Origin: Chloroflexota bacterium
Lineage (GTDB): Bacteria > Chloroflexota > UBA11872
Direction: 5' to 3'
Length of the DNA stretch: 64,000 nucleotides
NCBI GenBank assembly: GCA_022821645.1
Contig: JAJEDE010000027.1
Coordinates: 62,001 to 126,000, forward strand
Each line of letters opens with the position of its first letter. Positions within the stretch are counted from its first letter, which is position 1. Below the pieces are notes generated by a model, which searched no databases, was not told the origin of the DNA, and saw only the letters and a list, made by a program, of their open reading frames with translations. Shown here one piece after another: positions 48,913-64,000 of this stretch. The translations under genes were made by a program, and so were the position numbers.

Positions 48913-50195
48913 GAACTCGACAGTCTGGTGACGGAGCGGTAGCGACCGTCCGCGCCAATGACCGAGAGGAACACCGCATCGGAGCCCTGGTTGTCGGCAT
49001 CGTCGTAGTGAAGCCTGAACCCATCGATCTCCTCGGCGCTGCGCAAGCTCTTGAGAAAGCAGTCACGGCTCAGTTCGGGTCCGCACCGCTCAAGGCCCAG
49101 GATGGTCAGACGGCCGGCCAGATAGCCCTCGAAGGAAACAAAGCCCGGAACAGCGTCCGGATCGAACGCGGCCAGCGCGCGATGGTAGGCCTGAACCACC
49201 GGCAGCGACGTGTCCGTGGGAAAGGGCACCACCTGCGTGACGAAGACGCCGGCGCCCTCCGGCCCCAGCTCCTGGGCCAGGGCGTTGCTGCCGACAAAGG
49301 AAATGGTCATGAACACCGGAATGAACCCCAGGTGCCGTGACCACGCAACCAGGGCGGCCACCGGTTCGTAGGCGCCAACCATGATCACGGCTTCCGGCTG
49401 CCCCTCGCGCAGGTCCAGCAGCGCGGTCTTCACGGCCGTGGTGTTGCGCGGATACACGCCAACCGCGGCCAGGGTCATGCCGCGCCGCTCCAGGGCGGCC
49501 TGCACGCCGTTGTAGCCGGCCCGCCCGTAGGAATCGTCCTGGTACAGCAAGGCAATTCGACTGATCCCCAGGTCGTTGGTCAGGCGATCCACCATCTCCT
49601 CGGTCTCCTGGTTGTAGGAAGCCCGCAGATTGATCACGACGTCATGCAGATCCTCGCCGCGCAGAAACGCCGCGCCGGTAAACGGCGCCAGGTAGGGCGT
49701 ATTGGCCTCAACCGCCACGGGCACGGCGGAACGCGAGGTCGGCGTGCCCACGGCGCCGATCAGCGCAAACACGTTCTCCTGCTCGATCAACTGCTTGGTG
49801 TTGGCAATGGCGGCCTCGGGCTCATAAGCATCATCCAGCGTCGTCAGATCCAGCCGGCGCCCGTGCACGCCGCCCTTTTCGTTCGCCTCCTGAAATGCGG
49901 CCTGAATGCCCAGGCGCATGTTCAGGCCCAGCTCGCTGGCCGGACCGCTGAACGCGGCCGACTGGCCGAACAGGACGCGTTCATCAGACACACCGGCCGC
50001 TGGAGCGGAATCCGCGTCAATCACGGACGCAGTCGCGTCCACCTGGGCTGTCGGCGACGCCGGCGCGCTAACGGTCGTTACCGTCATGCCACCCACCGCC
50101 AGCATGGCCCAGACCACGATCGCGATGGCAGCAAGGCCCCCAATCCCTAGTGCTGCGAGCAGCCACGCCCTGGGCACGGGGGCCAACCGAGTCAT
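48909..50195 (-). CDS. LivK-type periplasmic substrate-binding protein
   Basis: FGQSAAFSGPASELGLNMRLGIQAAFQEANEKGGVHGRRLDLTTLDDAYEPEAAIANTKQLIEQENVFALIGAVGTPTS; N-terminal TM/signal. Confidence 0.88.
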   Translation of the reverse strand: MTRLAPVPRAWLLAALGIGGLAAIAIVVWAMLAVGGMTVTTVSAPASPTAQVDATASVIDADSAPAAGVSDERVLFGQSAAFSGPASELGLNMRLGIQAAFQEANEKGGVHGRRLDLTTLDDAYEPEAAIANTKQLIEQENVFALIGAVGTPTSRSAVPVAVEANTPYLAPFTGAAFLRGEDLHDVVINLRASYNQETEEMVDRLTNDLGISRIALLYQDDSYGRAGYNGVQAALERRGMTLAAVGVYPRNTTAVKTALLDLREGQPEAVIMVGAYEPVAALVAWSRHLGFIPVFMTISFVGSNALAQELGPEGAGVFVTQVVPFPTDTSLPVVQAYHRALAAFDPDAVPGFVSFEGYLAGRLTILGLERCGPELSRDCFLKSLRSAEEIDGFRLHYDDADNQGSDAVFLSVIGADGRYRSVTRLSSS

Positions 50196-50611
50196 TCCGC
50201 CCGATAGGCGACGAGCGTCAGGTGGTTGCGGCCTTCTTCCCGCCGATATGTGAGTTCGTCCATCAGCTTCCGCACCAGGAAGACCCCCAGCCCCCCGATC
50301 GGCCGTTCGTCCATCGGCGCGTTCACGTCCGGAACGGGCGCTTCGGTCAGGGGGTCGAACGGCTTACCGTCGTCCACCATCTCAATGGTCAACGCATCGT
50401 CGCTGGAGCTAAAGGTAAAGGAAATCTCGTGCAGCCCGCCGTCGTGACCATGATTGATGGTGTTGATGGCCAACTCTTCGAGCACCAGGTTCACCTTGCC
50501 AACCAGACCGGGCGACCAGTCGTCTTCCTCACCCAGATTCTCCACCACCTCGGTCAGTCGCGTCAGTTCCGCCAGCCTCGTCTCGATCACGACGGTGCGC
50601 GTGAGGCTCAT
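50192..50611 (-). CDS. RsbW-like anti-sigma/GHKL serine kinase
   Basis: VNLVLEELAINTINHGHDGG, MVDDGKPFDPLTEAPVP, RPIGGLGVFLVRKLMDELTY. Confidence 0.88.
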   Translation of the reverse strand: MSLTRTVVIETRLAELTRLTEVVENLGEEDDWSPGLVGKVNLVLEELAINTINHGHDGGLHEISFTFSSSDDALTIEMVDDGKPFDPLTEAPVPDVNAPMDERPIGGLGVFLVRKLMDELTYRREEGRNHLTLVAYRAE

Positions 50612-51780
50612 CCCCCACCCCCCGTACGGCGAAACGTCAGGCAGGTAATGTCGTCCGACGCCGGGGTGTCTCCCACAAAGTCACTCACCGCTTGAAAGAT
50701 CGCCTGGTTGGCCGCTCGCGCGTCATCGCCGGGGCCGTCCGCCATCGCCGTTTGCAGCCGCTCCAGGCCAAACTGTTCCTCGGTGCTGGTCATCGCTTCG
50801 CTCACGCCGTCGGTGTAGAGCACGATGGTCTCGCCCGGCTCCAGTGTGACGCTGTTCTGCCGATACTCCAGGTCGGGCAGCAGGCCCAGGGCAATGCCGC
50901 CGGTCAAGGGCAGGGATGACGACGTGCCGTCCGGCTTGACCAGCAAGGGCGGGTCATGCCCGCCGCTGGCATAGGTGAATTCACCGTTCGCCGGGTTGTA
51001 CTCCGCGTAGAGCACCGTCACAAACATCTCGGTCTCGTTGTCCTCGTACAGCAGGTCATTGACCTCACGCAGCACGTCGCCGGGACCGGCTGATCCAATC
51101 GCCGAGCCCTTGATCAGGGTTCGCGTCGACATCATGAACAGGGCGGCGGGCACGCCCTTGTCGGACACATCGGCAACGGTCATGCCGATGCGATCGTTCT
51201 CCAGCATCACGACGTCGAAGAAGTCACCGCCAACGCTGCGGGCCGGTTCCATGTTGGCGAAGAGTTGATAGTCGGGGCTCTCCGGAAAGTGGGTGGGGAG
51301 AATCGACTGCTGCATCTTGCTGGCGACGCTCAACTCGTTCTGCAGCGCCACCAGTTGGTCGCGCGACGCCAGCGCCTCTCGCCACTCCATCAGGTGTTGC
51401 AGCGTGCGGTCGATCGTCACCCGCAGGTCGCGGAAATCAATGGGCTTGGTCACGAAGTCAAAGGCCCCGCGGTTCATGGCCGTCCGGATGTTCTCCATGT
51501 CGCCATACGCGGAAACGATGATGGACTTGATGTTGGGGTCGACCTTGGGTATCTGCTGCAGCAGCGTCAGCCCGTCCATCTCCGGCATGTTGATGTCCGA
51601 CACCACCATGTCGATGTCGTCTTCCGCGTGCAGTCGATCAAGGGCCTGGACCCCGTTCCGCGCAAACACGAACGTGTATTCGCCTCGTCGGATACTGCGA
51701 CGCATCCGCTGCAGCATGAGCGGCTCAAGGTCCGGCTCATCGTCAACGACCAGGATTTTGTACGGAGGTTTGACTACCAC
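50608..51780 (-). CDS. Response regulator (REC) fused to PP2C/RsbU-like phosphatase
   Basis: ILVVDDEPDLEPLMLQR...VVSDINMPEMDGLTLL...; PARSVGGDFFDVVML, YASGGHDPPLL, LYTDGVSEAMT. Confidence 0.9.
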   Translation of the reverse strand: MVVKPPYKILVVDDEPDLEPLMLQRMRRSIRRGEYTFVFARNGVQALDRLHAEDDIDMVVSDINMPEMDGLTLLQQIPKVDPNIKSIIVSAYGDMENIRTAMNRGAFDFVTKPIDFRDLRVTIDRTLQHLMEWREALASRDQLVALQNELSVASKMQQSILPTHFPESPDYQLFANMEPARSVGGDFFDVVMLENDRIGMTVADVSDKGVPAALFMMSTRTLIKGSAIGSAGPGDVLREVNDLLYEDNETEMFVTVLYAEYNPANGEFTYASGGHDPPLLVKPDGTSSSLPLTGGIALGLLPDLEYRQNSVTLEPGETIVLYTDGVSEAMTSTEEQFGLERLQTAMADGPGDDARAANQAIFQAVSDFVGDTPASDDITCLTFRRTGGGG

Positions 51781-51846
51781 GATTTCACCCCCACGTTCCC
51801 TGTGCCATGGCCCGTGCGAATCCCCCCCGGATGAGGCAGGCGGAGT

Positions 51847-52743
51847 TCAACGTGCACATGCGGTCAGCGCCTCGGCCTGAGTGTCACGCACTGGAATGAT
51901 CTGATCGAAGCCACTCACATTGAAGACCTTGCGGACCGGCTCGGTCACCGCGCAAAGGCCCAACTCGGCCCCTTTTTGTCGAAGGGACTTGGACAGCCCC
52001 AGCACCACGCGAAGCCCGGCGCTGCTGATGTAGTCGAGCTTTCGGCAGTCGAGAATCATGGCCAGTTTGCAGGCCTTGCTCACCACGTTGATGGCGCGTT
52101 CGAATTCCCGCACGGTGTTGGCGTCCACGCGCCCTTCCAGCGCAACCACGACGGCTCCGTCCGGGGTTGCATTGAGCACCGAAAGCTTGATGCCACTCCT
52201 CGCCGGCGGCCTGTCCTCATCCGCGTCATCCGCGTACATGCCATCGTGCTCCATGTGGATCAGCACCGGGGCACTGGCCATCGCCCGTCGGTCGTTGGCA
52301 GTTTCCACCCGGCCATCGCCACTCGAGTCCGTCGCGCTGCGCAGGAGCGCCCGGTGCTCCAGGGCCCGCTCAATCGTGGCGCGCAAGTCCCGGAAGTCGA
52401 TGGGCTTGGTGATGAAGTCAAACGCCCCGCGGTTAATGGCCGATCGAATGTTGTCGATATCGCCGTAGGCCGTAACGATCACCGATCGCACCTCCGGATC
52501 CACATCCGGAATCTGCTGGAGCAGGGTCAGTCCGTCCATCTCTGGCATGTTGATATCCGAGAGAACCACGTCAAAGTCGTTCTCCCGTAACCGCGCCAGC
52601 GCTTCCACGCCGTTGCGGGCAAACACAAACTCAAACTGGCCCTTTCGGATGCTCCGGCGCATCCGCTGCCGCATCAGCACCTCAAGGTCAGCCTCGTCGT
52701 CGACAACCAGGATTTTGGATGGGGACCCCGCGTCCACGGTCAT
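51847..52743 (-). CDS. Response regulator (REC) fused to STAS anti-sigma antagonist domain
   Basis: ILVVDDEADLEVLMRQR...VVLSDINMPEMDGLTLLQQIP; C-terminal ILDCRKLDYISSAGLRVVLGLSKSLRQKGAELGLCAVTEPVRKVFNVSGFDQIIPV. Confidence 0.88.
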   Translation of the reverse strand: MTVDAGSPSKILVVDDEADLEVLMRQRMRRSIRKGQFEFVFARNGVEALARLRENDFDVVLSDINMPEMDGLTLLQQIPDVDPEVRSVIVTAYGDIDNIRSAINRGAFDFITKPIDFRDLRATIERALEHRALLRSATDSSGDGRVETANDRRAMASAPVLIHMEHDGMYADDADEDRPPARSGIKLSVLNATPDGAVVVALEGRVDANTVREFERAINVVSKACKLAMILDCRKLDYISSAGLRVVLGLSKSLRQKGAELGLCAVTEPVRKVFNVSGFDQIIPVRDTQAEALTACAR

Positions 52744-52804
52744 GCCTCCGGGTTCGCGAGGAAGTGGCCCGGATCGGGCGCCGCCGCGGTGGTATCGGTG
52801 ATTG

Positions 52805-53149
52805 CTAGCTTGAACATGCGGCCAAAGCCTCGGCCTGGGAGTCATGCACGGGAATGATCTGATCGAAGCCGCTCACCTCGAGAACCTTGCGCAGGGACTC
52901 CGGCACGGTGCAGACCGTGAGCGTGCCGCCTTTTCGCGCCTGGGCCTTGGTGAGTCCCAGCAGCACGCGCAGCGCCGCACTGCTGATGTACGTGAGATCC
53001 TCGAGGTCCAGGACTATCCCCCGCTTGCCGGCGTCCGCCACGGCATCCAGCACCCGCTCGAACCGCTGGGCGTTGGAACTATCGACTCGGCCCTCGATCG
53101 CGACGACCATCACCCCGTTCCCCGTAACGTTCACCACACTCAGCTTCAC
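52805..53149 (-). CDS. STAS-domain anti-sigma factor antagonist
   Basis: IVLDLEDLTYISSAALRVLLGLTKAQARKGGTLTVCTVPESLRKVLEVSGFDQIIPVHDSQAEALAA. Confidence 0.88.
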   Translation of the reverse strand: MKLSVVNVTGNGVMVVAIEGRVDSSNAQRFERVLDAVADAGKRGIVLDLEDLTYISSAALRVLLGLTKAQARKGGTLTVCTVPESLRKVLEVSGFDQIIPVHDSQAEALAACSS

Positions 53150-53263
53150 TTGGTCTCAGGCTTCCTGCTGACAGGCAACAGGACAGGCCGCGTTGCTGTC
53201 GGCGTGTACCCCGTTCGGCCTCTCGCGGATCGGCCCCGTCGCCGTCCGCCACGCACGCCGGGC

Positions 53264-53608
53264 TCAGCTCTTGCGGGCGGCGAGCGCTTCGGCCTGGGTG
53301 GCGTGAATGGGGATGATCTGGTCGAAGCCGCTAACGCTGAAGATCTCGCGGATCGGATCCGACAGCGAGCAGATGGTTAGCGTGGCGTCCTTGCGCTGCA
53401 GCGACTTCGCCGCCAGCAGGATCACCCGCAACCCCGCACTGCTGATGTACGTCAGCCGCTCCATGTCCAGAATCACTGCCTGGTCGCTGGCCTCGATCAC
53501 GGCCTCCAGGGCACTCTGGAAGTCGCGGGCGTTGGTACCGTCCACCCGGCCATCCGCGGTGACCACGATGGCTTCATCGTTCCACGCCCACTCGGTGCTA
53601 ACGCTCAT
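53264..53608 (-). CDS. STAS-domain anti-sigma factor antagonist
   Basis: VILDMERLTYISSAGLRVILLAAKSLQRKDATLTICSLSDPIREIFSVSGFDQIIPIHATQAEALAA. Confidence 0.88.
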   Translation of the reverse strand: MSVSTEWAWNDEAIVVTADGRVDGTNARDFQSALEAVIEASDQAVILDMERLTYISSAGLRVILLAAKSLQRKDATLTICSLSDPIREIFSVSGFDQIIPIHATQAEALAARKS

Positions 53609-55124: not shown

Positions 55125-55165
55125 AGCCGTCGCCCCGGCGTCGGCCTGAAGCCGGGGCGACGGCT
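55125..55165. terminator. 15-bp perfect GC hairpin between host genes and the virion-like operon
   Basis: AGCCGTCGCCCCGGC ... GCCGGGGCGACGGCT; no T tract. Confidence 0.55.
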
Positions 55166-55210: not shown

Positions 55211-55447
55211 CTAGGCCGCGAGCCGGCCCTTGATCTGGCCCAGCGAGTCCGCGATCGAGGCCTGGTAACGGGTCATCTCGGTGTGGTGCGCCGTCAGGCT
55301 GCGGTCAATGCTTGCCAGCAGCTGCAACGCGCGGGTTTCCGAGTCGGTGCCGCGCGCGCGGCTGCGCCACCGCACCATCTCGCTGCGTACCGCGCGCACG
55401 ATGTAGATGGTCACGGCCGTGATGATCCCAATGGTCTCGGGTTCCAT
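55211..55447 (-). CDS. Small membrane-anchored protein of the virion-like operon (holin-position)
   Basis: MEPETIGIITAVTIYIVRAVRSEMVRWRS...LLASIDRSLTAHHTEMTRYQASIADSLGQIKGRLAA; ATG preceded by GGAG. Confidence 0.55.
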   Translation of the reverse strand: MEPETIGIITAVTIYIVRAVRSEMVRWRSRARGTDSETRALQLLASIDRSLTAHHTEMTRYQASIADSLGQIKGRLAA

Positions 55448-55551
55448 GGAGGTCTGCTCCTTCGTATGACTGTTGGGGGAATTCGGCATCGCGCCGGCCC
55501 CTTCGGTATTCCGGCCGGGGTCGATCCAGCCGGGCTCGTCCACGCGTTGCA

Positions 55552-56604
55552 CTACACGGCTCCAATCGCCAGCCAATAGACCAGCCCCGGGCTGGCGTTG
55601 CTGAAGTTGCCGGCGTCACCGGTGGCGGCCTGCAGGGTGAAGCCGTCGACACGCAGGTTGGTGCAACGCGCCACCACCCGACGACCGCCAATATCCTCGC
55701 GGGGCGTGGCGAATGCCGCGTAGACCGTGCGAAACGGGTTCTCGAACGTCACGGTGTGATCGGACCAATTCTGCGAGGGCGCGCCCGCCACCGAGGCCAC
55801 GCCCACCTCGGCTCGCCACTGACCGCGATCCACGTGGTTGGCGGGCGTGCTGTCCTGGAAGTTCGACAGGCGCAGCGCCTTGTCCATTGGGTGTGGAGCA
55901 AAGGCCGACGCCAGCGTCCCCTCGGCGACCTGCATCCCGTCGAACCAGGCCGTGGTGTCCCCCTGCTTGAGCTTGCAGAGCGCCAGCAGGGTCGGCGCCG
56001 CCCGGTCCGCGGTGATGGTGACGGTCAGCCACTCCCACGCCGAACTGCCGGAGTGGTAGGTCGAAACAGCCGTGGTGACGCCGTCGCCCACTTCCAGCCG
56101 CGCTCGATTGGGGACCGTCGCATGCACCCAGCCGCCCAGGGTGAATGTCCGTCCGCGCAGGTAGGTCAGTCCGCCCAGGTCGTCGGCCAGGCGGCGGCGC
56201 AGATCGCAGTCGGCGCCCCGCCGCGTCAGCGAGGCCGCGTAGCGCCCGTGCTTGACGACCGAAGTCGCGCGCGCGACCTGGGCGCGAGCGCCCGACAGCC
56301 TCCAGCCGTCCGGCGCATCCGACCCGCCGCCGGACCACGACTCGAAGTCGCCATTAGGCAGCGCGTTGTGGAATTGCTCGGCATGGAAGGCGCCCGGCGC
56401 CAGCTTGGCGGTCGTTACCGCGCCCGCGGCTAGAGCGGACTCCGTCAGTTGGGGGCCGTCGCCCGCCCTGCCGGAGTGATCGTGCCCGGTCATGGCATGG
56501 AAGCCGGCGTCGATCAGATCGGCGTTGTTGTTGAACACGTTGATGTCGTATCGCTCGGCGCCCAACGGCTTGGTCAGCCGCAGGTTCGCCGTGGTAGTTG
56601 CCAT
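55552..56604 (-). CDS. Phage tail-fibre/receptor-binding-like protein
   Basis: N-term ANLRLTKPLGAERYDINVFNNNADLIDAGFHAMTGHDHSG...LTESALAAGAVTTAKLAPGAF is typical of phage tail appendage proteins; carbohydrate-binding-like middle. Confidence 0.65.
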   Translation of the reverse strand: MATTTANLRLTKPLGAERYDINVFNNNADLIDAGFHAMTGHDHSGRAGDGPQLTESALAAGAVTTAKLAPGAFHAEQFHNALPNGDFESWSGGGSDAPDGWRLSGARAQVARATSVVKHGRYAASLTRRGADCDLRRRLADDLGGLTYLRGRTFTLGGWVHATVPNRARLEVGDGVTTAVSTYHSGSSAWEWLTVTITADRAAPTLLALCKLKQGDTTAWFDGMQVAEGTLASAFAPHPMDKALRLSNFQDSTPANHVDRGQWRAEVGVASVAGAPSQNWSDHTVTFENPFRTVYAAFATPREDIGGRRVVARCTNLRVDGFTLQAATGDAGNFSNASPGLVYWLAIGAV

Positions 56605-56614
56605 GGAGGGCCTC

Positions 56615-58993
56615 CTAGAGCCTGGCGAGTTGCGTGTGCAGGTAGGCGGCCTGCTCCCGGTGGGCGTAGGCCGCCAGTCGGTTGTGTGTGCCCGTGCCGG
56701 CGGTCGGCCGGTATTCGGTGGCTGTCACGGGCATCAGCCATTCCAGGTTGCGTCCGGCCTCGCTGCGCCTGGCCTGGGCCTCGGCGCTCCGCACCAGCGC
56801 CTCCACGTGCTCGCCGTCCGGACTGACCAGCACCACCGGCTCGCGCGTGGCCGCCGCGGCGGCGATCGCAAGCTTGATTTCGCGTCCCGACCGCCGGTCG
56901 CGTCGCCCATCCCGCAGCGGCGTCTGGTCCGCGATCCGAACCACGAACTCGAACACGCGCTTGAAATCTGCGCGCACCGCGTAGGCCAATGACGCGGCGT
57001 GCATCACCGGCGACGTTGCGGGATCGTCCGTGTGCAGCGTCAGGCGAAGGTCAATGGCTGTCGCCGCGGCTTCCCGACCAAACTCAATGCGCTGGCCATC
57101 GGCGGCGAAGCGTCCAAGGTGCCGGAACGTCGTGCCGTCGCCGAGTCGATAGGAAGTGTCCACCCACGTGGAAGCCGTCAGCCGGTCTCCGCTCACGGCC
57201 AGTGCCAGGAAGGCCTTCGGCTGAGCCGCGAAGCCCGCGTCGAAACGCGACAGCGTCAGGTCCGCGCTCCTGGCATATCGGCAATTCCGATCGTGCAGCG
57301 GATTGGCGGAGTCGCGCGGAAGCACCATGGCCGCCAGTGATCCGCCGATGGCGACATACAGCCGCGGATTCGGACCCGGCCAGTCGGACACCCACATGTG
57401 CCGGCAGTCCACCCGCCCCAGGCGCGCCAGCGGGTGCCATGTGTCACGGTCCTGGTTCAGCGCCAGCAGGGTGACGTATCCGTTCTCATCGCGGAGAGCC
57501 GCATAGAGGTAGTGGGCGTCGCCCGCGCAGGCCGTAACGCGACCGCGGATCGGCGAGTCGTTCTCGCCCAGGCGCTCCGGACCCGACGGCCTTAACTCAC
57601 CGGGACGAAATCGGCAGAGTCCCTGCGGCAGCGGTAGCCACAGATACCCTCGCCAGGCCGCCGCTCTTTGACCGCTGTACGGGCTGTTGTGCCGCACCGG
57701 CTGGGACCATAGGTGGTCCACCACCGCACTCGTGTCCGTGCCGGGCCGAAGTGCATAGAGACCATCCGCCTTTACGAGATACGCCGTTCGGCCCAGGCTC
57801 TGCAGCGCGCTAACGTCAAATGCCCCATCGCCGACGGGGATGCCATCCGTCCAGGTGGAGGCCGCGCCACCGTCCGCCGAGATTGACAGCGCCGGCGCAC
57901 CGGCTTCGCTGCTCACTCGTGCGAGTACCGAACCGATGACCCGGAACGCCTCGGCCTTGCGGACCTCGCGAACGGCGAGTCCATTGATGCGGGTTGACGA
58001 GTCCAACGCCGACGCCACGGTTAGCCGCAACCAGAACGCCTCAGCGCCATTGATGGCCGCACGCCGCCAGTCGGACGGCTCGCGAAAGCTCACGTCACCG
58101 TCGCGCGCCAGCGTCCTGCCATCCTGTGCCGTGCCGTCGCGCAGCCCGGCTACGCTTATCCAGGCCGAGCCGTTCCAGTACTCAGCCGCAACGTCGGCCG
58201 CGTTGCCGTTTGCGGCGACGTTCATCTCGACGGCCAGGGCCGCGAACGGCGCCTTTCCGCCAATCAACAGCCACGCCCCGTCGGTCACCGCGCCCAGTGA
58301 GTCCAGGTGCCCATAGGTCCCTGAATCCCCGTCGCTCACGGCGTCGGTGAGGTCGGCGTAGGTCTGGCCGCCGTCGCCGGTTCGCAGGACCGCCACGGGC
58401 GTGGCGCGCTGGCCCGTGTGCTGTGTCCAGTTCGAGCCGTCAAAGGTCCAGAACGGCTCGTCGGCCGCGGCGCCGCCCACGGCCACGAAGGCCATCGGCC
58501 GGTCCGCGCGCCCCGCAAAGACCGCCGCCGAGCGCGCCGTTATCCCGGGTTCGAATGCCTTCGCCAGGGTCCAGCGCCGGCCGTCCCGCGACCGGTACAC
58601 GGCCGACCCCGCCAGCACGTAGGTGGTGTCGCCCAGCGCAAAGTGATCCGTGATCGTTCCCGACGAGGTAATTGGCGTGGTCAGGATTTCGGGCGGCAGC
58701 GTGACCTGGTGCGGGATGCGCGTATCGGCCACGCCGTGGGCGTAGCCGGTCGACCCGCCGCGCGGCACGACCCGCTGGCCGTATCCGCCCGACAGGTCGT
58801 CCACGGCCCAGGTCGTCTCGTCTTCCGGCGGGAACTGGGCATAGGACTGGTCCGTCTGGCTGACTCGCGGCGCAAAGAAGTCCAGCTTGCGTTCGCGCCA
58901 GGCAATCTCCGCGCCCGACCGCTGGCTCAGCATCAGGCCTACGCCGTCCACGATGCAGTCGTAGGGATAGGGCGGGCGGTTTCCGCGCGGCAT
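56615..58993 (-). CDS. Large virion/tail-like structural protein
   Basis: 792 aa, beta-rich repeats, in operon with capsid-like and fibre-like genes; function from context. Confidence 0.45.
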   Translation of the reverse strand: MPRGNRPPYPYDCIVDGVGLMLSQRSGAEIAWRERKLDFFAPRVSQTDQSYAQFPPEDETTWAVDDLSGGYGQRVVPRGGSTGYAHGVADTRIPHQVTLPPEILTTPITSSGTITDHFALGDTTYVLAGSAVYRSRDGRRWTLAKAFEPGITARSAAVFAGRADRPMAFVAVGGAAADEPFWTFDGSNWTQHTGQRATPVAVLRTGDGGQTYADLTDAVSDGDSGTYGHLDSLGAVTDGAWLLIGGKAPFAALAVEMNVAANGNAADVAAEYWNGSAWISVAGLRDGTAQDGRTLARDGDVSFREPSDWRRAAINGAEAFWLRLTVASALDSSTRINGLAVREVRKAEAFRVIGSVLARVSSEAGAPALSISADGGAASTWTDGIPVGDGAFDVSALQSLGRTAYLVKADGLYALRPGTDTSAVVDHLWSQPVRHNSPYSGQRAAAWRGYLWLPLPQGLCRFRPGELRPSGPERLGENDSPIRGRVTACAGDAHYLYAALRDENGYVTLLALNQDRDTWHPLARLGRVDCRHMWVSDWPGPNPRLYVAIGGSLAAMVLPRDSANPLHDRNCRYARSADLTLSRFDAGFAAQPKAFLALAVSGDRLTASTWVDTSYRLGDGTTFRHLGRFAADGQRIEFGREAAATAIDLRLTLHTDDPATSPVMHAASLAYAVRADFKRVFEFVVRIADQTPLRDGRRDRRSGREIKLAIAAAAATREPVVLVSPDGEHVEALVRSAEAQARRSEAGRNLEWLMPVTATEYRPTAGTGTHNRLAAYAHREQAAYLHTQLARL

Positions 58994-60214
58994 CTACCAG
59001 CCTCCACTCAGCATGACCCGCCGGGTGGCCCGTGGGCGGTAGAGGCGGGACAAGTGCTGGAACTCCAGCGCCGCGTCGCGCTGCAACGCCGCGTAGCGCG
59101 CCACGTCCCCCGCCGGCGCATCCCGGTTCAGGTGGCGGTACACCTCAACCAGCGCCCCTTGCGCAACCCAATCCACGGGCGCCTCGGTGGTGGCGTTGTC
59201 GTTGGCCAGCGGCGCGTAGGCCCGCAGGCCTTCGATCAGCAGCGTCTCGCCCAGGCTGGGCGGTGGGTCCGCTTCCAGCCACAATTCCGGCCCCCGCGGC
59301 CCCGGGTTCACCGTGGTTCGCCACCAGTTCACCGCGGTCATCACGCGCCGCGGATGTTCTGCCGCCCGCCGCCAGACTTCGACAACCTGCTGCCGCTGCC
59401 TGACCCAGGAGGGCAAGGGAAATCGCCGGCGGTTGGCCGCCAGCAGTACCACCTGGGACCATCGCGTCACGGCGTCTGCCTCCGCGCCGCCCAGCCGGAC
59501 TTCCATCGCCTCGCAGTCGTCCGGAACCACGAACGTCAGGCGCGCACGTCGCCAGGCAGTGCCGGCTACCGTCGCCCCGTCCACTTCGGCATCGGTCGCT
59601 AAGTTGCGGACCGACAGTCGCGCCGTGAAGCCACCGGGCGCCACCATTGCCTCAAGCGTGAACGGCTGACCCGGCCGCACGGCCAGGCTGGTCGACGCCG
59701 CATAGCCGTCCGCCGAGGTGTTGCGTACTTCCAGGCTGGCGGTGCCCCCGGATGCGTCGGCGTCGACCGAGGCTCTGGCCACGGTGGCGTTCCAGGCGCG
59801 CCAGGCGCGCGTGTCCGGGTTCTCCATGTCGCCGTCGGCCAGCGCCGTTAGCGGCGCCAGGGTCTGAAACCAGCAACGTGCCAGCGTGGCATCGATGGCT
59901 GCATTGATGACCTCGGGCGCAACCAGGCGTAAGAGCTCGTAGGACGCGCCGACGGCCGCGTGCGTGAACGCCCGGCTGACGGTGATTGACCCCGCCGCCG
60001 GATCGTAGGCCGCCACCCGCCGGGTTTCGCCCGCGTTTGGACCGTCGATCACGTGGATCCAGCTGTCGGCCCACAAGTCGGCGGATGCCGTCGAGTCCTG
60101 GAGCCGCGCCGGGTCGACCAGGGTCACGGTGGACCCGCCATCCGCCGTTCCGCTCAGGAACGGCGCCAGCCGCCGGGCGATTCGATGGCGCAAGGCGCGC
60201 CTCGTCACGCTCAT
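58994..60214 (-). CDS. Virion-associated protein (connector-like ends around a beta-sandwich middle)
   Basis: 406 aa; abuts next gene; helical termini VINAAIDATLARCWF and ALEFQHLSRLYRPRATRRV flank TASLEVRNTSADGYAASTSLAVRPGQPFTLEAMV. Confidence 0.4.
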   Translation of the reverse strand: MSVTRRALRHRIARRLAPFLSGTADGGSTVTLVDPARLQDSTASADLWADSWIHVIDGPNAGETRRVAAYDPAAGSITVSRAFTHAAVGASYELLRLVAPEVINAAIDATLARCWFQTLAPLTALADGDMENPDTRAWRAWNATVARASVDADASGGTASLEVRNTSADGYAASTSLAVRPGQPFTLEAMVAPGGFTARLSVRNLATDAEVDGATVAGTAWRRARLTFVVPDDCEAMEVRLGGAEADAVTRWSQVVLLAANRRRFPLPSWVRQRQQVVEVWRRAAEHPRRVMTAVNWWRTTVNPGPRGPELWLEADPPPSLGETLLIEGLRAYAPLANDNATTEAPVDWVAQGALVEVYRHLNRDAPAGDVARYAALQRDAALEFQHLSRLYRPRATRRVMLSGGW

Positions 60215-60465
60215 GGCTGGGCGCCGGAGCGCTCAGCGTCGCCCCGGCCCCATGTCGCGCGTTGGGGATCGAGTTGGTGCATGTCGGCCGCGCCGTGATC
60301 TCGCAGCCGCGCCGCCTGGCGCTCGCGCATGGCCAGCGCCGTGTCCTGCGCTTCCTGGCGATCCGGCGTGATCACCAGGATCTGGCGTCCGCCCTCCGCG
60401 CCGGGAAAGCGGTGGATCAGGCGCCGCGCCGGGCGGCGCCTGATCCAGATGATGGGAGCGTGCAT
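60211..60465 (-). CDS. Small hypothetical protein in the virion-like operon
   Basis: 84 aa, ATGA overlap with next gene. Confidence 0.5.
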   Translation of the reverse strand: MHAPIIWIRRRPARRLIHRFPGAEGGRQILVITPDRQEAQDTALAMRERQAARLRDHGAADMHQLDPQRATWGRGDAERSGAQP

Positions 60466-60497
60466 GTGCCGCTACCTCCTCCTGGAATCGCCCAGCC

Positions 60498-61352
60498 TTA
60501 GCTGGACGGGGTGGACGCGTCGAAGTACATCTCCACGCCCCAGGCGTCCGCGTATTCGCCCAGGCCGTAGTCCGCCACGACGTTCAATTCCCAGGCCCGC
60601 AGCGAGGCGTCGCGCTCGCGTTCCACGGCCCAGTCCTTGAACATCACCAGCACCAGCGCCTCTTTCGAGAACACCGCGCCCTTGGCGTCGTCGCTGCCGT
60701 CCACCGCCAGGTTTCCGGCCTGGAAGACATCCACGCCGAACGCGCGCGCCACCCAGTGGTTTTCCAGCACCGTTTGCGAGATGCCGGCCGGCACCGGATA
60801 GCTGCCCGTGGGCGAAATGTCCGCCGCCAGGTCGTGCGCCTGGTACGGATGCAGCACCGCGTGGAACGGCTGCGGCGCCGGTTCGGCCGCCCCGTGCAGG
60901 CGCGACACCGCCGCCCGCAGGTGGCCCATCGAAATGTCCTGGCCGGCCCCGCCCAGCGACGCGCTGAAGCCGTCCAGCAGCCCCAGCAGGTCCTTGTCCA
61001 GCTTGCGGGCGATCGCGTCGCCCAACACGCGCCCGGCCGCCCGGGCCATGTCTTCCTTGGCCGTCCGCAGCGCGCGGTCCGTCAGCACGATCTGCGCGCC
61101 CACCTCGGCGGGCGTGATCGTGATCTTGCTGGTGGTCAGCGTCTGCGGGTTCGTCATGTCCACGCCCTCGGTCAGGGCGCTGGCCGCTACCGTCCCGAAC
61201 TTGGGAATCTCCAGCCGGTCGCCGGCCCCGCGCGGGACCCGATAGGTCCGCACCAGCGGTTCCATCACCGTGCGGTGCATCTGCGTGCGACGGGCTTCGG
61301 CAATCACCGTGTCCACCACGTCGCCAATTGAATCGGTCTTCGTTATCGCCAC
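60498..61352 (-). CDS. HK97-fold-like major capsid protein
   Basis: GTG start after GGAGG; IPKFGTVAASALTEGVDMTNPQTLTTSKITITPAEVGAQIVLTDRALRTAKEDMARAAGRVLGDAIARKLDKDLLGLL...FHAVLHPYQAHDLAADI resembles phage capsid proteins. Confidence 0.72.
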   Translation of the reverse strand: MAITKTDSIGDVVDTVIAEARRTQMHRTVMEPLVRTYRVPRGAGDRLEIPKFGTVAASALTEGVDMTNPQTLTTSKITITPAEVGAQIVLTDRALRTAKEDMARAAGRVLGDAIARKLDKDLLGLLDGFSASLGGAGQDISMGHLRAAVSRLHGAAEPAPQPFHAVLHPYQAHDLAADISPTGSYPVPAGISQTVLENHWVARAFGVDVFQAGNLAVDGSDDAKGAVFSKEALVLVMFKDWAVERERDASLRAWELNVVADYGLGEYADAWGVEMYFDASTPSS

Positions 61353-61898: not shown

Positions 61899-63299
61899 AT
61901 GCCGGCTTTGCACGCGTTTCTCGGCCACATCACGTTCCGCACTGCTCTGGTCGTCGCGGCGTTGGTCGCGGCTCTCGCGCTGGCGTTCACGGCCACGCCG
62001 GCCCAGGCTCAATGGCCAACAAGCTGTGTGGACCTGAACGACATTGTCGAGGCTCACCTGGGCAACCGCCAAAACGTGGGCATCTATCAGCGCGTATTCG
62101 GTGACGGGGCCGAGCAGGCTTGCCAGAACGATCACCGCGCCGATGTCCAGGGCACGTTCGCGTGGGCCATCCCGACGCCGGCCCCCACTCCGGCGCCAGT
62201 TCCGGCCCCCGGTCCTGCGCCTGCCCCGGCGCCCGCGCCGGCTCCGATGCCGAGTTCGGCGCCCATCGGCGAGATTTCGGTGGTCGCGACCTCACCTCTC
62301 GTCTTCCAGGACAGCACCATCTGGCTGGGAACCACCACCGGCGGCGTCCTCCGATCGGGAGACGCCGGAAGAAGCTTCACGCAGTCGACGATCGGGCTTC
62401 CAAACCTGACGATCAATGCCATCGCACCATCGCCCAGGGTGTCGGCCGACGGCGTGGTGCTGGCCGCCACGAACCTTGGGATTGGCCGTTCGGGCGACCG
62501 CGGCGCGACCTGGTCAACTGCTGCAGGCCTGCCGGCGGTTCGGTTCGGTGCTATCGCGGCATCGCCTCGATTTCAATCCGACCGTACCTTCTACGCCCTG
62601 GCAGACACGGGAGCGCTATTCCAGTCAACGGATGGCGGCGCGAATTGGTCGGTCATATCCACTACCCCGGCAAATGGCCAACCCGCGGCGACCTACCTCG
62701 GTCTGATCGCGGTTCAGGGACGCGGCGACAGGATCCACATCTTCTCGTACACCGTTAACAACGTGTTCGTAAGCGACAACCGTGGGCGGAACTTCCGATC
62801 AATACTGGGCAGTAACGCCCTGCCACGGCATCTCAAGATCACAGCCCTCGCAGTCCATCCTGAATGGAACTACGACAACGTCGTCTGGCTGGGTACCGAG
62901 ACGCTGGGCGTCTATCGTTCGGAAGACGGCGGCGATCACTTTACGAACGTGCTCCACAATCCACGGGGCCGGGACAATGAGCTAGGCCGAATCAACGTGA
63001 TCGCCCTCTCGCCCAACGTCACCCGCGATGGGACCATTGCGGTGGGCACCCAGCTTCGTGGGTTCCTCATGAGCAAGCGCAGTCAGCGGCTGGGAACCGT
63101 GGACGACATCGGAGCTCCGGGAAGTTGGAACCACCTCAGTGCAAGCCTGGCGATCCGCAACGTCCGCGGGATCGGCTTCAGCAATGGCTTTGCCGGTGAC
63201 GCGACGATTTACGCCGGAGGCGAAGTGCAGTTCGCGTTTAGCGGAAACGGGGCGACGAACTGGCTCACCTACCCCAACCCGGTCGGGCCCACCAGCTAG
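61899..63299 (+). CDS. Secreted BNR/sialidase-like beta-propeller repeat protein with Pro-Ala linker
   Basis: Signal peptide ALVVAALVAALALAFTATPAQA; repeated STDGGANWS, RSGDRGATWS, RSEDGGDHF; (PAP)n linker. Confidence 0.8.
   Translation: MPALHAFLGHITFRTALVVAALVAALALAFTATPAQAQWPTSCVDLNDIVEAHLGNRQNVGIYQRVFGDGAEQACQNDHRADVQGTFAWAIPTPAPTPAPVPAPGPAPAPAPAPAPMPSSAPIGEISVVATSPLVFQDSTIWLGTTTGGVLRSGDAGRSFTQSTIGLPNLTINAIAPSPRVSADGVVLAATNLGIGRSGDRGATWSTAAGLPAVRFGAIAASPRFQSDRTFYALADTGALFQSTDGGANWSVISTTPANGQPAATYLGLIAVQGRGDRIHIFSYTVNNVFVSDNRGRNFRSILGSNALPRHLKITALAVHPEWNYDNVVWLGTETLGVYRSEDGGDHFTNVLHNPRGRDNELGRINVIALSPNVTRDGTIAVGTQLRGFLMSKRSQRLGTVDDIGAPGSWNHLSASLAIRNVRGIGFSNGFAGDATIYAGGEVQFAFSGNGATNWLTYPNPVGPTS
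62166..62265 (+). repeat. Low-complexity Pro-Ala repeat tract
   Basis: Encodes IPTPAPTPAPVPAPGPAPAPAPAPAPMPSSAP. Confidence 0.85.
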
Positions 63300-63468: not shown

Positions 63469-64000
63469 GTGGATCCCAAGAACCTCCTGGTTCTCATGTC
63501 CGACGAGCACAACCCCCGCATGCTGGGTTCCGCCGGCCATCCCCTGGTGCAAACACCCAACCTGGATGCCTTGGCTGCGGCCGGAACCTCGTTCACCACC
63601 GCCTACTGCAACTCCCCCATCTGCGTCCCCTCCCGCGCCAGCTTCGCCACCGGCCGTTACGTCCATCAGATTCGCGCCTGGGATAACGCCGCGCCCTACA
63701 CCGGCAATGGCGCTTCCGGCTGGGGTCATCGGCTCACAGAGAACGGCCACGCCGTCACCACCATCGGCAAGCTCCACTACCGCAACACCGCCGACGACAT
63801 CGGCTTTCCCGATCAGCGCATCCCCATGCACGTCATGCACGGGATAGGGGACGTCTACGGCTGCATTCGCTCCAACATGCCCGTCACCCGCTACCAACTC
63901 GGCCATGTCGACCATGCCGGCGACACCGACTCCGAGTACATCCGCTACGACACCGCCATCGCCGCCGAAGCCGTCCGTTGGCTCCACGCCGAGGTGCCAA
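63469..64000 (+). CDS. Sulfatase (type I, formylglycine-dependent), 3' truncated by window
   Basis: GTG start; NLLVLMSDEHNPRMLGSAGHPLVQTPNLDALAAAGTSFTTAYCNSPICVPSRASFATGRY with CxPSR motif; open to window end so absent from the ORF track. Confidence 0.88.
   Translation, partial: MDPKNLLVLMSDEHNPRMLGSAGHPLVQTPNLDALAAAGTSFTTAYCNSPICVPSRASFATGRYVHQIRAWDNAAPYTGNGASGWGHRLTENGHAVTTIGKLHYRNTADDIGFPDQRIPMHVMHGIGDVYGCIRSNMPVTRYQLGHVDHAGDTDSEYIRYDTAIAAEAVRWLHAEVP

Follow-up and report, generated by a model that had tools for sequence, protein, structure and literature searches.

We analysed 64,000 nucleotides of DNA from a Chloroflexota bacterium (hereafter the window; G000:C10:62001-126000, part of a 235-kb contig of the 3.55-Mb genome G000) and focused on a six-gene minus-strand operon near its right edge. 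This operon is likely to be one half, capsid and tail, of a podovirus-derived gene transfer agent (GTA), a GTA-like viriform that is chromosomally fixed in one Chloroflexota family. Judged by its genes, the family looks to have kept an apparently full set for a short-tailed particle (capsid, packaging motor, tail and lysis), with no integration or replication genes found. The particle genes are vertically inherited and co-diversify with the host, and the element is probably domesticated and functional. The operon, from its first gene to the hairpin behind its last, reads as follows.

60498..61352, minus strand: major capsid protein of HK97 type, 284 aa; GTG start after GGAGG; Pfam and PHROG matches above cut-off
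60211..60465, minus strand: conserved 84-aa protein directly 3' of the capsid gene; orthologue in 18/18 capsid-bearing genomes
58994..60214, minus strand: head-tail connector or tail-adaptor candidate, 406 aa, with an inserted carbohydrate-binding-like domain; N-terminal profile match
56615..58993, minus strand: tail nozzle-like (beta-propeller) protein, 792 aa; profile and Foldseek match
55552..56604, minus strand: tail-fibre-like protein, 350 aa; weak sub-threshold Gp53-like_C and tail-type matches
55211..55552, minus strand: small last gene, 113 aa, or 78 aa from an ATG at 55447 with a good ribosome-binding site
55125..55165, unstranded: terminator candidate hairpin between the operon end and a convergent host gene

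All six open reading frames were found where the original prediction had placed them, and they are as tightly packed as it described: the 84-aa and 406-aa genes overlap by 4 nt at an ATGA, the 406-aa and 792-aa genes abut (TAG-ATG), 10 bp separate the 792-aa and 350-aa genes, and the latter overlaps the last gene by 1 nt. The hairpin named as one boundary is real, with 18-nt arms (55125-55142 and 55148-55165) that are 94% complementary around a 5-nt loop, and the opposing BNR gene that bounds the other end is present at 61899-63299. The small last gene is kept in 11 core genomes of genus g1 (dN/dS 0.27); the transmembrane character ascribed to its product comes down to a short hydrophobic stretch, and its start is uncertain.

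The same prediction described the operon as lacking packaging genes, which was not the case. They seemed to be missing because the window ends before them: genes for the large terminase subunit (TerL), a protein like the small terminase subunit (TerS), a portal and a scaffold-like protein lie on the same strand, 5-17 kb further on and just past its right edge. In the list below, position p of L062 corresponds to window position 64000+p.

L062:3055-3789, same strand as the operon: scaffold-like gene, 244 aa
L062:3786-4517, same strand as the operon: 243-aa gene
L062:4674-5201, antisense: Xre-type regulator
L062:5462-6916, same strand as the operon: TerL
L062:14294-14527, same strand as the operon: TerS-like gene, 77 aa
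L062:14807-16525, same strand as the operon: portal

TerL matched the PHROG terminase large subunit (83.8 bits) and the PDB terminases 4znj and 4zni (E 2e-10), and both its ATPase motif (Walker A GGERAGKS) and its nuclease motifs are conserved across the family. The portal matched the PHROG portal (E 6.7e-6), and the family portal profile picked up the gene in the portal place of IMG/VR phages; in one of these phages that gene also matches the PHROG portal. The scaffold-like gene is presumed to act in that role. Pfam searches with PF03354 (TerL) and PF04860 (portal) in five family genomes returned no matches; a true absence of both genes, as first suggested by these nulls, was rejected, the flanking DNA holding divergent TerL and portal genes.

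Several further observations concern the terminase genes. The first ~46 codons of TerL (L062:5462-6916) are about 60-73% identical to the N-termini of HTH/transposase-like reading frames elsewhere in these genomes, and an insertion element seems to be fused to the TerL start in about four genomes. A second TerS-like/TerL pair, without portal or capsid, is located at G000:C27:31948-33445 (L122, L123), its TerL being 64% identical to the first. This pair adjoins a second sulfatase and BNR gene and is apparently an old duplication of the segment; second TerL copies of a similar kind were seen in six other genus-g1 genomes.

The identification of 60498-61352 as capsid-like was borne out. Its product scored above cut-off against Pfam Phage_capsid_4 (42.6 bits, cut-off 27) and Phage_capsid (25.3 bits, cut-off 24.2), matched PHROG major head proteins with E down to 2e-11, and proved homologous to the annotated capsids of eight phages (26-36% identity, 92-98% of length covered), those of Pelagibacter phages being 34-36% identical. 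The capsids of the family formed one clade apart from viral capsids, with low support (0.48). Pfam and PHROG matches of the other operon genes are, on their own, absent, weak or sub-threshold, and the 84-aa protein matched no family in either. The capsid, portal and 406-aa alignments returned nothing useful from PDB.

For the tail genes, the reading as adaptor, nozzle and fibre was adopted because of matches to 9efk_M and because of gene order in IMG/VR phages. The profile of the 792-aa protein matched 9efk_M, from the portal-tail complex of phage LME-1 (E 7.5e-5). The same chain was the top Foldseek match of its low-confidence model (E 2.7e-9), with P22 gp10 and a T7 portal-tail chain lower down; this match was used because the independent profile search gave the same PDB chain, a fold match alone not being trusted. 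Searches with the 792-aa protein against GenBank phages and with its alignment against IMG/VR gave no match, and its phage relatives surfaced only through a profile search of capsid-bearing contigs. Several IMG/VR phages carry, 3' of the homologous capsid, a 406-like gene and directly after it a 792-like gene, and the N-terminus of the 406-aa protein matched (E 1e-13) the gene immediately 5' of the nozzle-like gene in these related phages. By this position the 406-aa protein is a candidate adaptor; the fold search of its model was uninformative. Its insert of ~130 aa (CBM_4_9, below cut-off) occurs in genus g1 and G018 and is absent in genus g2. The fibre-like protein has orthologues in 16 genomes; its N-terminus is kept across genera, and genus g2 has another C-terminus in place of the original one. 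As in the original prediction, a tape-measure gene was not recognised, and the tail genes are podovirus-like.

A lysin, which the original prediction did not recognise, is encoded 3' of the fibre gene in relatives; the genome under study has it at a separate locus. Past the fibre gene, the operon of genus g2 and G018 encodes small membrane proteins and a lysin with M23 peptidase and SLT transglycosylase domains. A related 650-aa M23 and SLT protein of genus g1, with a small gene 5' of it, sits at another conserved locus:

G000:C28:108945-111142: lysis cassette of the own genome, with the same neighbours in G010, G013 and G014

A tail-plus-lysis module on G000:C24 (L204) was considered as a second locus of the genome and rejected. 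It is 81-94% identical to genus g2 and contains second copies of host genes from the window. Its contig, whose 250 kb make up 7.06% of an assembly with an estimated contamination of 7.13%, is probably a contaminant. Genus g2 has a second lysis cassette (L206, G003:C10:334001-353500) near a 495-aa protein, fibre-like repeats and a possible MuF-type fragment; these phage-like genes perhaps belong to a different, decayed prophage.

We then compared relatives in public genomes, all of which are metagenome-assembled, among them a closed 3.0-Mb chromosome (OY282448.1). Several of their isolate names (RHO, COS, SB0662) are associated with sponge metagenomes. The capsid gene was present in single copy and 84-97% identical in 18 of the 19 family genomes, including all 15 of at least 90% completeness, and the only genome without it is 76% complete. 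It was absent from 5/5 sister-family genomes, from 17 further genomes of the class and from the rest of 400 phylum genomes except for one distant match (E 1e-10). TerL and portal share this distribution, the exception being G012, where the paralogous TerL, beside contig breaks, was the only copy seen. In 15 assemblies the order is portal, TerS, TerL, antisense Xre, 243-aa gene, scaffold-like gene, host genes, capsid, 84-aa, 406-aa, 792-aa and fibre genes. The genes between the two blocks (a bacterial PH protein, a sulfatase, the antisense BNR protein and also a PIN toxin-antitoxin) are host-type by Pfam. The main cluster spans 15.5-25.3 kb, in addition to the second locus, and its location is the same in every genome. 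The two blocks lie 38 kb apart in G003 and are inverted, the packaging block at C4:179.7-183.0 kb on the plus strand and the capsid block at C4:220.4 kb on the minus strand, but both are intact. As the original prediction had noted, no integrase was found among all genes called in the region, nor was any phage replication gene. A cluster of duplicated anti-sigma-antagonist (STAS-like) and response-regulator genes (window positions 50192-53608), which in several relatives is found ~2 kb away from where the operon ends, may hold regulators.

Vertical inheritance was evident from a tree of the concatenated portal, TerL, capsid, 406-aa and 792-aa proteins, which had 10 of 15 splits in common with rpoB, where 500 label shuffles gave at most 3. 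LeuRS shared 8 of 14 splits with rpoB, so that the particle genes fit rpoB as well as it does. Distances over all genomes correlated with those of rpoB at a Spearman coefficient of 0.81-0.88 for the particle genes and 0.80 for LeuRS; within the close core of genus g1 this correlation was weaker for both alike. The particle genes are also under purifying selection. Within genus g1, dN/dS (NG86) was 0.084 for the capsid, 0.107 for TerL, 0.135 for the portal, 0.169 for the fibre, 0.179 for the nozzle, 0.202 for the 406-aa protein and 0.348 for the scaffold-like protein, compared with 0.120 for LeuRS. Between genera no other protein of the set evolves as slowly as the capsid (84.5% identity versus 85.5% for LeuRS). 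No internal stops were found in the particle genes of relatives, and the frames, called intact rather than decayed from the window, are intact in every relative checked. The two checks in relatives that had been proposed at the outset found gene order kept and dN/dS at 0.08-0.35.

We infer from these genes that particles form, that they carry DNA packaged by the headful mechanism and transfer it, and that the set is regulated. TerS and TerL would thread host DNA through the portal to fill the capsid, probably in a headful manner that needs no viral start site, and the adaptor (406 aa), nozzle (792 aa) and fibre (350 aa) would close the head and form a short tail. The separately encoded lysis cassette, a small protein with the M23/SLT lysin, would lyse the producer and free the particles, which could deliver host DNA to kin.

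A number of points weigh against a GTA. Particles, packaged DNA and transfer are predictions. The portal homology is weak by sequence, weaker than for capsid, TerL, nozzle and lysin, and TerS was assigned by the size (76-90 aa in the family) and the position of its gene. In the genome under study a 7.4-kb insertion that encodes a type ISP restriction enzyme separates TerS from TerL, and TerL itself carries a transposase-like N-terminal fusion. The 243-aa and scaffold-like genes were not recognisable at the locus in G018 or genus g2, a ~1,300-aa protein of the related phages is absent from the Chloroflexota set, and the AlphaFold models of the 792-aa and 406-aa proteins are poor (pLDDT about 50).

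The original prediction inferred a domesticated virion module that could be GTA-like, a capsid nanocompartment or an extracellular appendage. The first of these is favoured by the vertical inheritance and purifying selection of the genes, by their fixed locus and by the host genes interleaved with them; the nanocompartment and simple-appendage readings are unlikely because TerL and portal adjoin the operon. An encapsulin-like nanocompartment with appended surface proteins would account for a capsid that evolves as slowly as this one; it is nevertheless hardly credible, as portal and TerL, useless to such a shell, are conserved with intact motifs, and tail and lysis genes co-occur with the capsid. 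Encapsulins pair an HK97 shell lacking portal and terminase with an enzyme cargo, and no cargo enzyme was recognised in the operon. Adjacent terminase or portal genes in relatives had been expected to indicate an ordinary prophage. The adjacency was found, but in its behaviour the set is part of the host's chromosome, unlike a mobile prophage. An ordinary or decaying prophage, common in the family by chance, is very unlikely: its head, tail and lysis set would be complete and related free phages exist in IMG/VR, yet a temperate prophage has integrase or replication genes and a variable insertion site. Here none were seen among the called genes, one locus is shared by all genomes, the tree is congruent with rpoB, host genes lie between the blocks with the lysis cassette elsewhere, and dN/dS is well below 1 with no internal stops.

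Rather unlikely, too, is a killer particle of the PBSX kind: a defective phage, domesticated by the host, that takes up host DNA but serves to kill competitors via its tail instead of transferring genes. The same gene content would be kept, and the fibre C-terminus and adaptor insert differ completely between genera, as for changing targets. Near the operon, however, we recognised neither a bacteriocin nor an immunity gene, and such a particle needs no DNA-packaging motor, whereas TerL and portal are strongly conserved. Beyond the GTA assignment itself, we see an even chance that this is an independently exapted podovirus-type GTA lineage, family-wide in probably sponge-associated Chloroflexota and actively moving chromosomal DNA among uncultured symbionts, with the second terminase paralogue of genus g1 as a possible packaging variant. 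Characterised GTAs come from very few lineages. A set that is conserved and under selection in another phylum would be a further case of independent domestication; comparisons could then address why bacteria keep such particles, and uncultured symbionts would have a route for exchanging genes. A GTA can be overlooked where host genes interrupt its cluster.

Among known systems, PBSX of Bacillus subtilis is likewise a chromosomal phage-like element. It is contractile-tailed and bactericidal, whereas no bactericidal function is known for the Chloroflexota set. PBSX packages host DNA fragments of about 13 kb (PMC12946183). The IMG/VR phages L044 and L046-L050 and Pelagibacter phage HTVC111P share a homologous capsid with portal and scaffold upstream; in L044, L046-L048 and L050 the capsid is followed by 406-like and 792-like genes as in the Chloroflexota operon, and HTVC111P has a TerL that the family profile picks up (E 4e-15). 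The IMG/VR phages differ as free viral contigs with the ~1,300-aa gene between portal and scaffold, and HTVC111P in being annotated with a tape-measure gene and other tail genes.

GTAs have six attributes (PMC9662315): caudovirion-like structural genes, endogenisation often at several loci, mostly vertical inheritance with co-diversification, packaging of mostly random host DNA, a gene set that cannot be wholly packaged, and delivery of DNA to cells. Three of the six were found here: structural genes (by homology), multi-locus endogenisation and vertical inheritance with co-diversification. The slow capsid, comparable to LeuRS, fits the observation that GTA capsids evolve slowly (PMC9662315). 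GTA small terminases without a detectable DNA-binding domain have been described (PMC11841831), and the TerS-like gene, whose HTH_16 match covers only 20 residues below threshold (16.8 bits, cut-off 22), agrees with this feature but is too short to decide. RcGTA (Rhodogtaviriformidae, PMC9662315) also has vertically inherited chromosomal head-tail genes at several loci and a slow capsid and TerL; it differs in its 49-nm tail from the podovirus-like tail genes found here, among which no tape-measure gene was recognised. In the open-access literature covered for Chloroflexi/Chloroflexota, SAR202 and sponge symbionts, no title or abstract described a GTA from this phylum, and the one podovirus-like GTA found in the open literature was FpGTA (2026) of Faecalibacterium prausnitzii (PMC12946183). 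FpGTA belongs to another phylum and has particle, proteomic and DNA evidence, whereas the Chloroflexota set is likened to it by gene content and organisation; here tail genes follow the capsid, lysis genes are separate in genus g1 and attached in genus g2, and host genes interrupt the cluster. Like the Chloroflexota set, FpGTA is podovirus-like, with a TerS/TerL/portal/scaffold/capsid operon and a separate tail and lysis operon, and it was present in all genomes examined of a genus and packages the host chromosome (PMC12946183).

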